A stretch of 64,000 nucleotides of DNA from contig JAHBYP010000001.1 of assembly GCA_019635875.1 (NCBI GenBank), positions 992,001 through 1,056,000 on the forward strand, read 5' to 3'. This document shows, one piece after another, positions 51,402 through 58,354 of the stretch; the first letter of the stretch is position 1, and each line of letters opens with the position of its first letter. Source of the stretch: Alphaproteobacteria bacterium (lineage in GTDB: Bacteria > Pseudomonadota > Alphaproteobacteria > Reyranellales > Reyranellaceae). Made by a program: the position numbers and the translations under genes. The notes beneath the pieces were generated by a model. The model made no database searches, was not told where the DNA came from, and saw only the letters and a list, made by a program, of their open reading frames with translations.

Positions 51402-53602
<2,201 letters not shown>

Positions 53603-53663
53603 GCGGCGAATATAGGGGTGGTCGCGGCGGTGGGGGAGGCCGGGTTGTCCCCATCAATTTTCC

Positions 53664-53692
53664 TTGAAAGGATAAAAGTACTCCTTTATAGT
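53664..53692 (+). promoter_or_regulatory. strong sigma70-type promoter with overlapping inverted repeat
   Basis: TTGAAA (53664-53669), 17 bases, TATAGT (53687-53692). The expected transcription start falls at about 53699-53700, which is the A of the ATG at 53700, so the message would be leaderless. AAAGGA (53667-53672) and TCCTTT (53682-53687) form a perfect inverted repeat between the two boxes and would block the promoter if bound. Confidence 0.75.
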
Positions 53693-53699
53693 ATTGCCC

Positions 53700-54191
53700 A
53701 TGGCGAGGAGTCGCAAAACCTCTGGCGCCGGGTTTGCCCGGCTGCGGCTGGATCCCGCTCCGGAAGCTGCCGAGGCGCTGGCGCGGCTGGTCGAGACCTA
53801 CGATGTATTGGCCAGTTGGCTGGACGCCACGATTCCCGCAGGTCATCCGGCGGACCAGGTCGCCCTGCATCGTGCCTTTTACGAGCCGGCGCGGCGCCAA
53901 TGCGGACTGCCGGCGCAGCTCACGACGCTCGCGCTGCGCGACTGGGCGATGCGCCGGCGCGGAGACGACGTCGATGGCGTGCCACTCGACGAGCGGCTGT
54001 ACAGCATCAGGGGAATCTCCACCGTTTCGCTGGCCACGGTCGACGGGCGGGTCAGCGTGCCGTTCGCGGTCGCGGGTTATGGCCAGCGTTGGGGCGGCAG
54101 CGCGCCGGCGCGCCTGAGGTGGTCTGCGGGTCAATGGGAACTGCATATCGAAGCGGGGGCACAGGTCACCCGCCTTTTCCAGGAGGGTACG
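53700..54191 (+). CDS. TnpB-like N-terminal (WED/REC) lobe, open in frame into pspA
   Basis: 164 codons with no stop before PspA. FARLRLDPAPEAAEALARLV, then AFYEPARRQCGLPAQLTTLA and ISTVSLATVDGRVSVPF, ending QWELHIEA, follow the order seen in the N-terminal half of IS605-type TnpB proteins. The match ends where TnpB would begin its first RuvC motif; no RuvC or zinc finger follows. It is either a domesticated nucleic-acid-binding lobe fused to PspA (382 residues in total) or a transposase remnant that happens to be in frame. The leaderless ATG at 53700 is set by the promoter. Confidence 0.55.
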
Positions 54192-54848
54192 ATGGCGACG
54201 GAAACAGTCCTGACGCGGATCGGCCGGGTGATCGCCGGCATGACGCACGCCGCGGTCGACGCGGCGGAGAACGCCGGCTCGGAGGCGGTGCTGGCCCAAG
54301 CGCTACGCGAGATCGATGCCGCGGCCGACGAGGTGCGCGGCGAGCTCGGCAAGGCGATGGCCGAGCGCACGCGACTGGAGCTGCGGCGCAAGGAGCTCGA
54401 CCGCGAGCGCGACGACCTCGACGCCAAGACCAAGGTGGCGGTCGAGAAGGGTCGCGACGACCTCGCCGAGGCGGGTATCGCGCGTCAGCTCGACATCGAG
54501 GCGCAGATCGGCGTGCTCGACCGCATGCTGAAGGATTCGCAGGACAGCATCGACCAGCTCGGCCAGACCCTGGGCGCCGTGCGCGCCAGTCGGCGCGAGG
54601 CGGAGAGCCGCCTGGCCGACCTGCGGCGCACGGCGAGCACCAATCCCTCGGGCGCCGCGGTGGGCGCGGCGCGCGTTGATCGCGCGCTGGACAAGGTCGA
54701 ACGCGCCCAGTCGGCGGTCGAACGCCTGACCGGCGTTCCCGCCGGCGACGCGCCGGCCGACGGCAAGGCGATCGACGAGCTCAACGATCTCGCCCGCAAG
54801 CATGCGGTCGCCGAGCGACTCGCGCGCTTGAAAGCTGGCCGCAACTAG
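54192..54848 (+). CDS. pspA: PspA/IM30 family membrane-stress protein
   Basis: 218 residues, long coiled coil: TRIGRVIAGMTHAAVDAAEN, LREIDAAADEVRGELGKAMA and ERTRLELRRKELDRERDDLD. PspA-type proteins form ESCRT-III-like assemblies on damaged inner membrane. ATG 54192 has an AGGAGG site at the right distance, so it can be made alone; the frame is also open to 53700. It is followed by yqiJ and yqiK, its usual partners. The C-terminal EELND/AVAERLARLKAG part is normal. Confidence 0.9.
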   Translation: MATETVLTRIGRVIAGMTHAAVDAAENAGSEAVLAQALREIDAAADEVRGELGKAMAERTRLELRRKELDRERDDLDAKTKVAVEKGRDDLAEAGIARQLDIEAQIGVLDRMLKDSQDSIDQLGQTLGAVRASRREAESRLADLRRTASTNPSGAAVGAARVDRALDKVERAQSAVERLTGVPAGDAPADGKAIDELNDLARKHAVAERLARLKAGRN

Positions 54849-54866
54849 GGCCAACTGAGTGAGCCG

Positions 54867-55562
54867 ATGCTCGACTTTCTTGCCCTTCCCCAGGTAGCAC
54901 CGTTCTCGATCGCCGCCCTCGTGCTGATCGGGCTGACGATGTTCGAGATCCTGACCCTGCTGGTCGGCAAGCCGATCTCCGCCGTGCTCGACCACGCGAT
55001 CCCGCTGGACAGCACGGCGGGCGACGGCTTCGGCGGCAAGGAGGCGCTCGAGGGCAAGACCGGGCTGTTCGGCTCCGCCTTCGACTGGCTCAATCTCGGC
55101 CGGGTGCCGATCTTCATCCTGCTGATCGTGATGCTCGCCGCGTTCTCGATCAGCGGCCTGGCGCTGCAGATCGGCATGGCGCGGATCTTCGCGCCGCTGC
55201 CGACGATCGTCGCCGTTCTCGCGGTGCTGGTTCCGACAGCGTACTTCACGCGCTGGCTGACACGCGCCATCTCCAGGATCGTGCCGCGCGACGAGACCTA
55301 TGCCCAGGCAAGCGCCGACTTCGTCGGACTGGTGGGTGTCGTGACGCTCGGGCCGGTGCGCGCCGGCGTCGTGGCGCGCGCCAAGATCCTCGATCGTCAC
55401 GGCAACGCGCACTTCCCCCGCATCGAGCCGGCCGATCCGGTCGCCGTGATCGCGGAGGGCACGACGGTCCTGGTCATCGACAGCCGCAAGGGCGTGCTCG
55501 CGGTCGCACCCGCCGATCCCGCTCTGATCGCCGATCCGCCGGCCGGACCAACCGGCTCCTAA
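54867..55562 (+). CDS. yqiJ: YqiJ-like membrane protein with OB-fold
   Basis: 231 residues. Membrane segments near 13-33, 82-104 and 113-133, then a beta-rich OB-like part (FVGLVGVVTLGPVRAGVVAR, TTVLVIDSRKGVLAV). In E. coli yqiJ precedes the flotillin gene yqiK. It starts 18 bases after pspA. Confidence 0.88.
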   Translation: MLDFLALPQVAPFSIAALVLIGLTMFEILTLLVGKPISAVLDHAIPLDSTAGDGFGGKEALEGKTGLFGSAFDWLNLGRVPIFILLIVMLAAFSISGLALQIGMARIFAPLPTIVAVLAVLVPTAYFTRWLTRAISRIVPRDETYAQASADFVGLVGVVTLGPVRAGVVARAKILDRHGNAHFPRIEPADPVAVIAEGTTVLVIDSRKGVLAVAPADPALIADPPAGPTGS

Positions 55563-55581
55563 TCGCCGCCTGGAGACCGCC

Positions 55582-57303
55582 ATGTTCAGCCAGCTCTACG
55601 ATCTCGCCGTCCCGGCCATCATTGTCATCGTGGCGCTGCTGGCGCTGGGTCTCGTCGTCGCGCGGCTCTATACCCGCGCCGAGAAGGACCGGGCCTATGT
55701 GCGCACCGGCCTGGGCGGCCAGAAGGTCGTGCTCGACGGCGGCTCGGTCGTGCTGCCGGTGTTCCAGAGCATCGCCTGGGTGAACCTGCAGACCCTGCGG
55801 CTCGAGGTCCGGCGCGACAACGCCGATGCGATGATCACGCGCGACCGCATGCGCGCCGATATCGGCGTCGAGTTCTACGTGCGCGTCAAGCCGGATGGGC
55901 CGTCGATCGCACTAGCGGCGCAGACCCTGGGCAATCGCACCAACGATGCCGAGCAGCTGCGCGCACTGGTCGAGGCGAAGTTCGTCGACGCACTGCGCAG
56001 CGTCGCCGCGACCATGGCGCTGGCCGAGCTGCAGGAGCAGCGCGCGATCTTCGTTCAGTCCGTGCAGACCGCGGTGGCGCGCGACCTCGAGCTCAACGGC
56101 CTCGAGCTGGAAAGCGCCTCGCTCACCAAGCTCGACCAGACGGACACCAAGTTCTTCAACCCCAACAACGCCTTCGACGCCGAGGGCCTGACGGCGCTGA
56201 CCAAGATCACCGAAACGCGCCGGCAGGAGCGCAACCTGACGGTGCGCAATACCGAGGTGGCGATCGCCCAGACCGACCTCGAGGCACGCCAGCGTACGCT
56301 GGACATCGAGCGGCAGAAGAAGGAAGCCGAGCTCACCCAGGAGCGCGACATCGTCAACAAGACGGCGGAGACGCGTGCGGCGGCGGCGCAGAAGGAAGCC
56401 GAGGCGCGCCAGGCCGAGGAGCAGGCGCGCATCGCCGCCGACCAGGTGATCGCCCAACGCAGCGCGACGGCCAAGCAGGCGCAGGAGACGGCGCGCATCG
56501 AGGCCGAGCTCGCCATCCGCCAGCGGCAGATCGAGAGCGAGCGCGCCGCCGAGACGCTGGCGATCGGCAAGAAGCGCGACATCGAGATCGCCGATCAGGA
56601 TCGCGCTATCGCCGTCGCGGACAAGAGCCGCGCCGAGAGCGAGGCACGGGCGAAGGCCGAGGAAGCGCGCGCGCTGGCGACGGCGGCGACCGAGGGCGTC
56701 GAGACGGCGCGGCAGATCGCCATCGCCGAGCGCACGCGGCAGGCCGCCGTCATCGACGCGCGCCAGGACGCCGAGCGGGACGCCGCCAAGGTGACCATCG
56801 CTGCACAGGCCGAGCGCGAGGCGGCTGAGAACAAGGCAGCGGCGATCCGCACCGAGGCGCAGGCCGACGCCGACGCGGCCAAGATCCGCGCCGAGGCGCA
56901 GGCCAAGACCTACGAGGTCGAGGCCGACGGCCAACGCAAGATCAACGAGGCGCGCAACGCCATGTCGGCGGCGATCATCGAGCTGGAGATCACCAAGGAA
57001 CGTCTGCGCGTGATCCCGCTGGCGCTGGCCGAGGCGGTGAAACCGCTGGAAAAGATCGGCGACGTGAAGATCATCGACATGGGCGGCGGCCTGCCCGGCC
57101 GCAACGGCGCTGCGCACGACGGCGGGGCGGCCGGCGCCACGCCCAGCGACTCGCTGCTCAACGCCCTGCTGGCCTACCGCGCGCAGTCGCCGGTGATCGA
57201 CAAGCTGCTTGTCGAGGCCGGATTCGACACCTCGGGCAATCCCGTGCGCGCGCTGGTCGACGGGGTCGGCGGCACGCCCGCCAAGCCCCGTTCGGAGTCG
57301 TGA
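55582..57303 (+). CDS. yqiK: flotillin YqiK
   Basis: 573 residues. One N-terminal helix (about 7-27), an SPFH/band 7 domain (about 30-210), then a very long Ala/Glu/Arg-rich coiled coil (about 210-480) and a C-terminal tail. Flotillins organise membrane microdomains and work with PspA and YqiJ in membrane stress. Own ribosome binding site TGGAG. Confidence 0.95.
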   Translation: MFSQLYDLAVPAIIVIVALLALGLVVARLYTRAEKDRAYVRTGLGGQKVVLDGGSVVLPVFQSIAWVNLQTLRLEVRRDNADAMITRDRMRADIGVEFYVRVKPDGPSIALAAQTLGNRTNDAEQLRALVEAKFVDALRSVAATMALAELQEQRAIFVQSVQTAVARDLELNGLELESASLTKLDQTDTKFFNPNNAFDAEGLTALTKITETRRQERNLTVRNTEVAIAQTDLEARQRTLDIERQKKEAELTQERDIVNKTAETRAAAAQKEAEARQAEEQARIAADQVIAQRSATAKQAQETARIEAELAIRQRQIESERAAETLAIGKKRDIEIADQDRAIAVADKSRAESEARAKAEEARALATAATEGVETARQIAIAERTRQAAVIDARQDAERDAAKVTIAAQAEREAAENKAAAIRTEAQADADAAKIRAEAQAKTYEVEADGQRKINEARNAMSAAIIELEITKERLRVIPLALAEAVKPLEKIGDVKIIDMGGGLPGRNGAAHDGGAAGATPSDSLLNALLAYRAQSPVIDKLLVEAGFDTSGNPVRALVDGVGGTPAKPRSES

Positions 57304-57398
57304 TCGGCGGCCGGCGATGATGTCCGATTTCCGCCAGAAAAGCTGATTGGAGACTGCCACATCGGGGCCATCGCTTCCGCCTTTCACGGAGACAACCG

Positions 57399-57800
57399 AT
57401 GGCCACGATCCGCAACAACATCACGATCGACCGCCCTGCCGATGCCGTGTGGGACGCCCTGCGCGACTTCCAGGCCGTGCATCGCCGCGTCGCGCCGGGC
57501 TTTCTCAGCGATTCGCAGCCGGACGGCGAGGACGTGCGCGTCGTTCACTTCGCCAACGGCACGACGGCGCGCGAGACGCTGGTGTCGGCCGACGACGAGC
57601 GCCGCCGGCTGGTCTATGCCATCATCGGCGGCCGTGCCGCGCATTACAACGCGTCGGTCCAGGTCATCGCCGAGGACGCCGGACGCTGCCGCGTCGAATG
57701 GATCATCGACCTGATGCCCGACGCGATCGCCGAATACGTCCGCGGCCAGACGAAGCTGGCGGTCGGCGACATGCAACGCACCATGGGAGGCGTCTCATGA
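57399..57800 (+). CDS. SRPBCC family protein
   Basis: 133 residues. NNITIDRPADAVWDALRDFQ at the start and EWIIDLMPDAIAEYVRGQTK at the end fit the START/polyketide-cyclase fold, which binds lipids or other hydrophobic ligands. The stop overlaps the next start (ATGA). It lies 95 bases after yqiK and may belong to the same operon. Confidence 0.75.
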   Translation: MATIRNNITIDRPADAVWDALRDFQAVHRRVAPGFLSDSQPDGEDVRVVHFANGTTARETLVSADDERRRLVYAIIGGRAAHYNASVQVIAEDAGRCRVEWIIDLMPDAIAEYVRGQTKLAVGDMQRTMGGVS

Positions 57801-58354
57801 CGGCGATCATCACCGCCCGCTGGCGCGACTGGAGCGGCGAGAGCCTGCAGCATCTGGTGCTGAGCGAAGGGCCGGATGCGATCGTCGCCGAGGCAGTCGT
57901 CGTCGGCGCGGAGGAGGGCGCGCGCTTCGGCGCCCGCTTCCGCATCACCTGCGATGTCGACTGGCGCACGCGCAGGGTCGAGGTCGACATGGCGGGCACG
58001 GCCCGCCGTCTCGATCTGCACGGCGATGGCGCCGGCCACTGGCGGGACGGCGGCGGAAGGTCCCTGCCCGAGCTCGATGGAGCCATCGACGTCGATCTGC
58101 CGCTGACACCGTTTACCAACACGTTGCCGATCCGTCGTCTGAACCTCGGCGCGGGCCAGTCCGCCGATCTGCGCATGGTCTACATCGTGCTGCCGGGCTT
58201 CACGGTCACGGTCGATCCGCAGCGCTACATCTGCCTTGAGCCGCTCCGACGCTACCGTTACGAATCGCTCGACAGCGACTTCGTGCGCGAGATCGAGGTC
58301 GATTCCGATGGGCTGGTGATGGTCTATCCCGACCTGTACCGCCGGATCAGCTGA
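57797..58354 (+). CDS. putative glycolipid-binding family protein
   Basis: 185 residues. The pattern of ARWRDWSGESLQHLVLSE at the start, a central DVDWRTRRVEV and GHWRDGGGRSLPELDGAIDVDL, then FTNTLPIRRL and VDPQRYICLEPLRRYRYESL matches the putative glycolipid-binding family PF06475. Coupled to the SRPBCC gene by ATGA. Confidence 0.8.
   Translation: MTAIITARWRDWSGESLQHLVLSEGPDAIVAEAVVVGAEEGARFGARFRITCDVDWRTRRVEVDMAGTARRLDLHGDGAGHWRDGGGRSLPELDGAIDVDLPLTPFTNTLPIRRLNLGAGQSADLRMVYIVLPGFTVTVDPQRYICLEPLRRYRYESLDSDFVREIEVDSDGLVMVYPDLYRRIS

Follow-up and report, generated by a model that had tools for sequence, protein, structure and literature searches.

A TnpB-type lobe without RuvC fused to PspA: a candidate guide-free autoregulator of an alphaproteobacterial membrane-stress operon

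RNA-guided nucleases find DNA by means of a guide RNA together with a short motif read by the protein itself, the target-adjacent motif (TAM) or protospacer-adjacent motif (PAM). In the phage-shock circuit of Enterobacteria, DNA is bound by a separate protein, a sigma-54 activator that PspA holds; E. coli has PspA and PspF for the two tasks. Regulators derived from TnpB, the TldRs, retain a RuvC domain that is inactivated, and they are RNA-guided (PMC13418256, in part), in agreement with the initial annotation of the locus described here. PspA operons with YqiJ and flotillin were reported in a 2024 survey of phage-shock protein (PSP) systems, in which fusions and repeats (NlpC/P60, PspAA, tandem) made up less than 2% of PspA homologues (PMC11237479, in part); the words TnpB and transposase do not occur in its main text. 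The present study concerns a gene in a 64,000-nucleotide (nt) stretch (the window; positions are counted from its first letter) of contig JAHBYP010000001.1 (positions 992,001–1,056,000), from an alphaproteobacterium of the Reyranellaceae (assembly GCA_019635875.1). It encodes the WED-REC lobe of a TnpB nuclease in frame with PspA, behind a promoter that carries a 21-bp palindrome. We think it probable, from sequence comparisons, that the fused lobe makes this protein a guide-free DNA-binding autoregulator, which would sit as a dimer on the palindrome and repress the pspA-yqiJ-flotillin operon.

Like the TldRs, the fusion is TnpB-derived and likely to control a promoter. As far as the cited source describes them, however, TldRs have an inactivated RuvC and a guide RNA, whereas the fusion is without RuvC altogether and PspA follows the lobe. 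As in the PspA-PspF circuit, PspA would control its own operon, but here PspA would itself contain the DNA-binding lobe, and the promoter resembles the sigma-70 type. The gene order pspA-yqiJ-flotillin is shared with the surveyed operons. The WED-REC lobe itself is shared with TnpB and Cas12f (IS200/IS605 OrfB); in contrast to these, it occurs here without RuvC or a match to the TNB zinc finger, is fused to PspA and has a palindromic predicted site at its own promoter.

The gene is a single open frame on the forward strand (53700–54845, 382 residues; stop codon TAG, 54846–54848), and re-reading confirmed the 382 codons of the initial annotation, with the lobe running in frame into PspA. Residues 166–382 are PspA (PF04012, 47.3 bits against a cut-off of 33.9). 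For residues 1–164 the match is to the WED-REC part of TnpB, with the RuvC half absent: the lobe stops at the point where GVDLG follows in TnpB, the frame goes straight into PspA, and no OrfB_IS605 or Cas12f1-like_TNB match was found in the fusion. The structural check gave a TnpB-like predicted fold, in line with the first assignment of the lobe. The lobe profile also matches a closer TnpB clade, which in turn matches the ISDra2-like TnpB set at 97.7% (hhalign). No Pfam or NCBIfam model, including any helix-turn-helix or other named DNA-binding domain, matched residues 1–164 at E values up to 1, and a PDB sequence search with the lobe profile returned chance matches only. Neither a second copy of the lobe (at E 0.01) nor an OrfB_IS605 match was found in the window's own genome. 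In the full-length model (mean predicted local distance difference test score, pLDDT, 71.2; predicted template modelling score, pTM, 0.43), most of the lobe and the coiled coil are confident; residues 163–193, and with them the linker geometry, are of low confidence.

Sequence comparison was based on 39 lobe loci. This set leaves out repeat records (L010, L011, L017–L029, L031–L033, L071, L090–L092, L094), L015, L016, the pattern loci L056–L069 and six of the 11 fusion plasmid records; L034 ends at its contig end. The start methionine of PspA is kept in all 37 loci that reach PspA, and a Shine-Dalgarno-like 4-mer lies 5' of this junction methionine in 36 of them, as against 9 of 177 other in-frame methionines. 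Two products are predicted. Translation from the leaderless start would give the lobe-PspA fusion, and initiation at the internal Shine-Dalgarno sequence and ATG would give a PspA whose N-terminus is free. The second had been proposed at the outset from AGGAGG and the ATG at 54192, and is upheld as a prediction. The mRNA is predicted to be leaderless because the -10 box lies so close to the first ATG (Table 1). The arrangement TTGAAA-17-TATAGT is the only sigma-70-like site in 53550–54300, with 10 of 12 consensus matches and a 17-nt spacer (mean in shuffles, 0.1).

The palindrome spans that spacer. Its strict form, AAAG-N13-CTTT, precedes the lobe in 31 of the 39 loci, the other eight being variants in one or both arms. 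Base pair 5/17, which lies outside the strict pattern, is complementary in 28 of the 31 strict loci; the full set of 39 has C:G there in 23 loci, G:C in nine, T:A in four and no pairing in three. The arms vary between lineages yet change jointly. The operator of each locus was chosen as the most palindromic AAAG-like 21-mer, which inflates arm pairing and to that extent weakens the case; the same picker placed further upstream gave a complementary 5/17 in 23/39 by selection alone, against 36/39 at the real sites (mean score 6.2 versus 10.2). The pattern AAAGNANNANNNNNNTNCTTT occurs at a single place in the window's own genome, read on both strands. In a scan of 24 genomes, it stood at this promoter in 11 of the 12 that carry the lobe and at three further places (in two Dongia-group genomes), and it was absent from all 12 that lack the lobe; a backwards control pattern had 12 matches in the same 24. 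As the pattern was built from these loci, its presence in them is by construction, and it is the near-uniqueness and the absence elsewhere that are informative.

The operator and the lobe co-vary at residue 73. Read from the right half-site, C at position 5 goes with Arg73 in 25 of 25 loci, and G or T with Gln73 in 14 of 14. Among the 364 fusion columns with at most five gaps, residue 73 is the only perfect predictor of operator class. On a tree built without that column it undergoes three or more changes, all of them accompanied by a change of operator class, and a single origin of Arg73 is rejected (approximately unbiased test, p-AU 2.1e-6). In ISDra2 TnpB, residues K76, F77 and Q80 of the corresponding REC helix contact the TAM, K76 through a bidentate bond to G (PMC10097598, in part); by ungapped helix register, residue 73 may correspond to F77, an uncertain assignment that could be off by about one position either way. 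Residue 73 would recognise base pair 5/17 in the manner of TnpB at its TAM, with an Arg contact to G and with Gln tolerant of other bases. Since operator and residue co-vary, binding is suggested. The initial annotation, in which neither palindrome nor co-variation figured, had as its first alternative a membrane-stress protein carrying a fused lobe that binds nucleic acid, with a second product consisting of PspA only; this is supported, and general nucleic-acid binding becomes a specific promoter-binding hypothesis.

One genome, G801 (L093/L095, G801:C21; its genus code is shared with the Dongia-group genomes G112 and G336), has the lobe in an operon without PspA. There the lobe is 159 residues long, measured from the GTG behind the palindrome, and yqiJ and flotillin come directly after it, PspA being missing from the operon. 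The palindrome (AAAGCACCCGATCGGTGCTTT) and Arg73 are both kept. Because this operon retains lobe and palindrome in the absence of PspA, it fits the lobe rather than PspA as the partner of the operator.

We propose that the lobe, as a dimer, needs no RNA to bind the palindrome and would so block the promoter of its own operon. A guide RNA would not be needed, since it is a symmetrical pair of half-sites that is most strongly conserved, with a drifting centre. The position of the site, between the two promoter boxes, favours repression over activation. PspA from the internal start would be the bulk effector. More speculatively, and guessing the coupling from known PspA biology, the PspA part could polymerise on the membrane under stress and pull the lobe off the operator, opening the operon; sensor and repressor would thus be one molecule. 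We give an even chance to the fuller account, in which the DNA-reading lobe of TnpB became a stand-alone, guide-free transcription-factor domain: RuvC was dropped and the TAM-reading helix kept, the dimer sits on inverted TAM-like half-sites with specificity set by Gln or Arg at residue 73, and the lobe was built into PspA, so that a stress effector directly represses its own gene and releases it on assembling at the membrane.

Table 1. Features of the lobe-pspA operon and its promoter in the window
Feature	Position	Strand	Basis
-35 box TTGAAA	53664..53669	+	consensus scan
21-bp palindrome AAAGGATAAAAGTACTCCTTT, predicted operator, across the -35/-10 spacer	53667..53687	+	pattern scan, arm co-variation
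-10 box TATAGT, 7 nt 5' of ATG	53687..53692	+	consensus scan
TnpB-type WED-REC lobe, residues 1-164, without RuvC	53700..54191	+	profile match, predicted fold, dN/dS
Codon of Gln73, co-varying with operator base pair 5/17	53916..53918	+	39/39 loci by right half-site; only such column of 364
Internal Shine-Dalgarno sequence AGGAGG	54181..54186	+	read from sequence
PspA/IM30 half; also predicted separate product from ATG 54192	54192..54848	+	PF04012 over cut-off
YqiJ-like membrane protein with OB fold	54867..55562	+	PF21001 + PF07290 over cut-off
Flotillin-like SPFH protein (YqiK type)	55582..57303	+	PF15975 + PF01145 over cut-off

Several observations weigh against repression by a guide-free lobe. 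Foldseek E-values for the lobe reach only 0.02–0.64, and direct hhalign of the lobe profile against the ISDra2-like TnpB set gave 0.7%, no match; to these is added the uncertain register at residue 73. The lobe-bearing genome G013 misses the scan pattern, and the half-sites of L013, L072 and L083 are unequal at position 5, the Arg73 loci L072 and L083 having T there in the left half-site. As judged by eye, the site is placed 5' of the probable -35 box in L013 and L033, ends 2 nt 5' of the start codon in L008, and has no clear -10 box after it in L014 and L072–L076, so a single repression geometry does not fit all loci. The upstream placement in L013 and L033 favours an alternative in which the operator-bound lobe acts as an activator, or mainly brings PspA to the chromosome instead of regulating transcription, and activators of the MerR type that bind within the spacer do exist. 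The spacer in the window, at 17 nt, is near-optimal, which favours repression, and tethering to the chromosome is ill-suited to about one site per genome; we consider this alternative unlikely.

Three features of the operators were seen besides. L014 and L072–L076 all carry a third half-site (AGTGCTTT or AGTGCTTAT) after the palindrome, just 5' of the start codon, and in L008 two palindromes, GGTGCTTTTATATTAAAGCACC and AAAGCACCAATCGGGTGCTTT, overlap. Position 4/18, usually G:C, is changed on both sides to T:A in L080 and A:T in L089, and given these changes a further specificity residue may exist.

An unlinked regulator might instead bind the palindrome, the lobe having some other role such as RNA binding and the link to residue 73 reflecting shared ancestry. 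The independent co-changes are indeed few, three on the best tree and two on strongly supported branches, and two independent pairs give a sign test too little to work with (p 0.5). A separate switch in L088 is not secured (p-AU 0.17), several long branches leave the tree unsure, the clade test was named after the tree was seen, and the residue was first spotted by eye, before the columns were ranked. A wider collection, made for more independent switches at residue 73, yielded no new loci. Other columns follow the operator state at 95–97% accuracy through phylogeny. Residue 73 alone is perfect, however, it lies in the TAM-reading helix, and Arg73 does not form one clade. Such a regulator would also serve one promoter, the site being almost unique in the scanned genomes, and the operon that has lost PspA still keeps both lobe and site. 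We regard this explanation as quite improbable.

A third possibility is that the lobe regulates the promoter but needs RNA, as TldRs do, with a small guide or scaffold RNA positioning it and the palindrome representing two TAMs. The WED domain of TnpB binds the omega-RNA scaffold as well (PMC10097598, in part), and the known TnpB-derived regulators are RNA-guided (PMC13418256, in part). On the other hand RuvC, the other scaffold-binding surface, is absent. An Rfam scan of 53000–58000 found no RNA family over threshold, its one sub-threshold match (E 0.39) lying inside the flotillin gene, and the predicted site is conserved mainly in its symmetrical half-sites. Its centre drifts between close relatives, for example L004–L007, which gives no sign of selection for a match to a guide. 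We hold an RNA-dependent lobe to be similarly improbable.

The initial annotation had also allowed for a TnpB remnant in frame with pspA by chance, serving only as a translated leader. PspA does have its own internal start, and a 566-base metagenomic contig (P0020) holds a lobe fragment frameshifted after about residue 104, by decay or sequencing error, but conservation and purifying selection exclude this reading, to which we give next to no weight: the ratio of non-synonymous to synonymous substitution rates (dN/dS) in the lobe is 0.07–0.15 in all 13 close pairs (hand-chosen), no stops were seen inside the lobe in genome matches of the relatives search or of the orders of G432 and G112, the predicted operator is conserved, and the lobe is kept even without PspA. 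The checks proposed at the outset, for purifying selection and for stops or frameshifts upstream of an intact pspA, thus came out in favour of the lobe, P0020 being the one frameshifted fragment. The PspA half gave dN/dS of 0.05–0.14 in chosen close pairs. Within this one gene in the window's genus (L001/L002/L003), the synonymous divergence, dS, of the lobe (0.70–0.82; 53700–54191) exceeds the value for the PspA half (0.31–0.35; 54192–54848) by a factor of over two, a contrast not common to all other lineages.

The lobe was found in nine of 193 genomes in the relatives search and six of 385 class genomes (own genome included in both; two chance matches removed from the latter). The order of G432 has it in 20 of 347 genomes and that of G112 in four of 17, one of these without PspA. 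Lobe-bearing genomes span ten family codes overall, and named contigs include Vineibacter terrae and a metagenome-assembled genome of Dongia mobilis. The fusion is also carried by plasmids of Rhizobium, Shinella, Agrobacterium and Bosea. Distribution is patchy, the window's own family being mostly without the lobe among genomes of the relatives search. A search of 16 genomes with the PspA half was positive in all seven with the lobe, always as a fusion, and gave no match at E 1e-5 in the nine without it. At least 427 relatives of the PspA half were found; among the 120 listed for N-terminal extension, more than 140 residues precede PspA in 99, 61–140 in eight, 11–60 in four and none in nine. 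These nine begin at the PspA methionine without a lobe, either a true lack or the gene caller's use of the internal start; the window's own cut PspA (P0003) is excluded.

Two weak class-genome matches, G183 and G407 (E 5e-4 and 0.003; L015 and L016; one with an internal TGA), showed no lobe-like sequence on reading and were excluded from the counts. In the Vitreoscilla PspA operon (L055), the 177-residue gene just 5' of pspA is not lobe-like and has no Pfam match over cut-off; PspA is unfused there, and no such palindrome was seen by eye in 150 nt. Stand-alone TnpB-like lobes lacking RuvC were seen at L053:1411–1941 (176 residues) and L098:2489–3031 (180 residues), within gene clusters on plasmids of Thermobacillus composti and Paenibacillus rhizovicinus, respectively. 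They share 53.5% identity over 154 residues, and the Thermobacillus composti lobe overlaps the start of an S-layer gene by 4 nt. They are possibly a second, independent domestication, or else truncated TnpBs.

No title reporting such a lobe-PspA regulator was found in the open-licence PMC literature, among the matches listed. If guide-free binding of the palindrome holds, the family would represent a new kind of bacterial DNA-binding switch. The rule linking residue 73 to base 5 is open to direct test. If true, the TAM-reading half of an RNA-guided nuclease would work without RNA or nuclease, bacterial transcription factors would include a DNA-binding domain of new origin, and alphaproteobacteria would possess a one-protein version of the phage-shock circuit.
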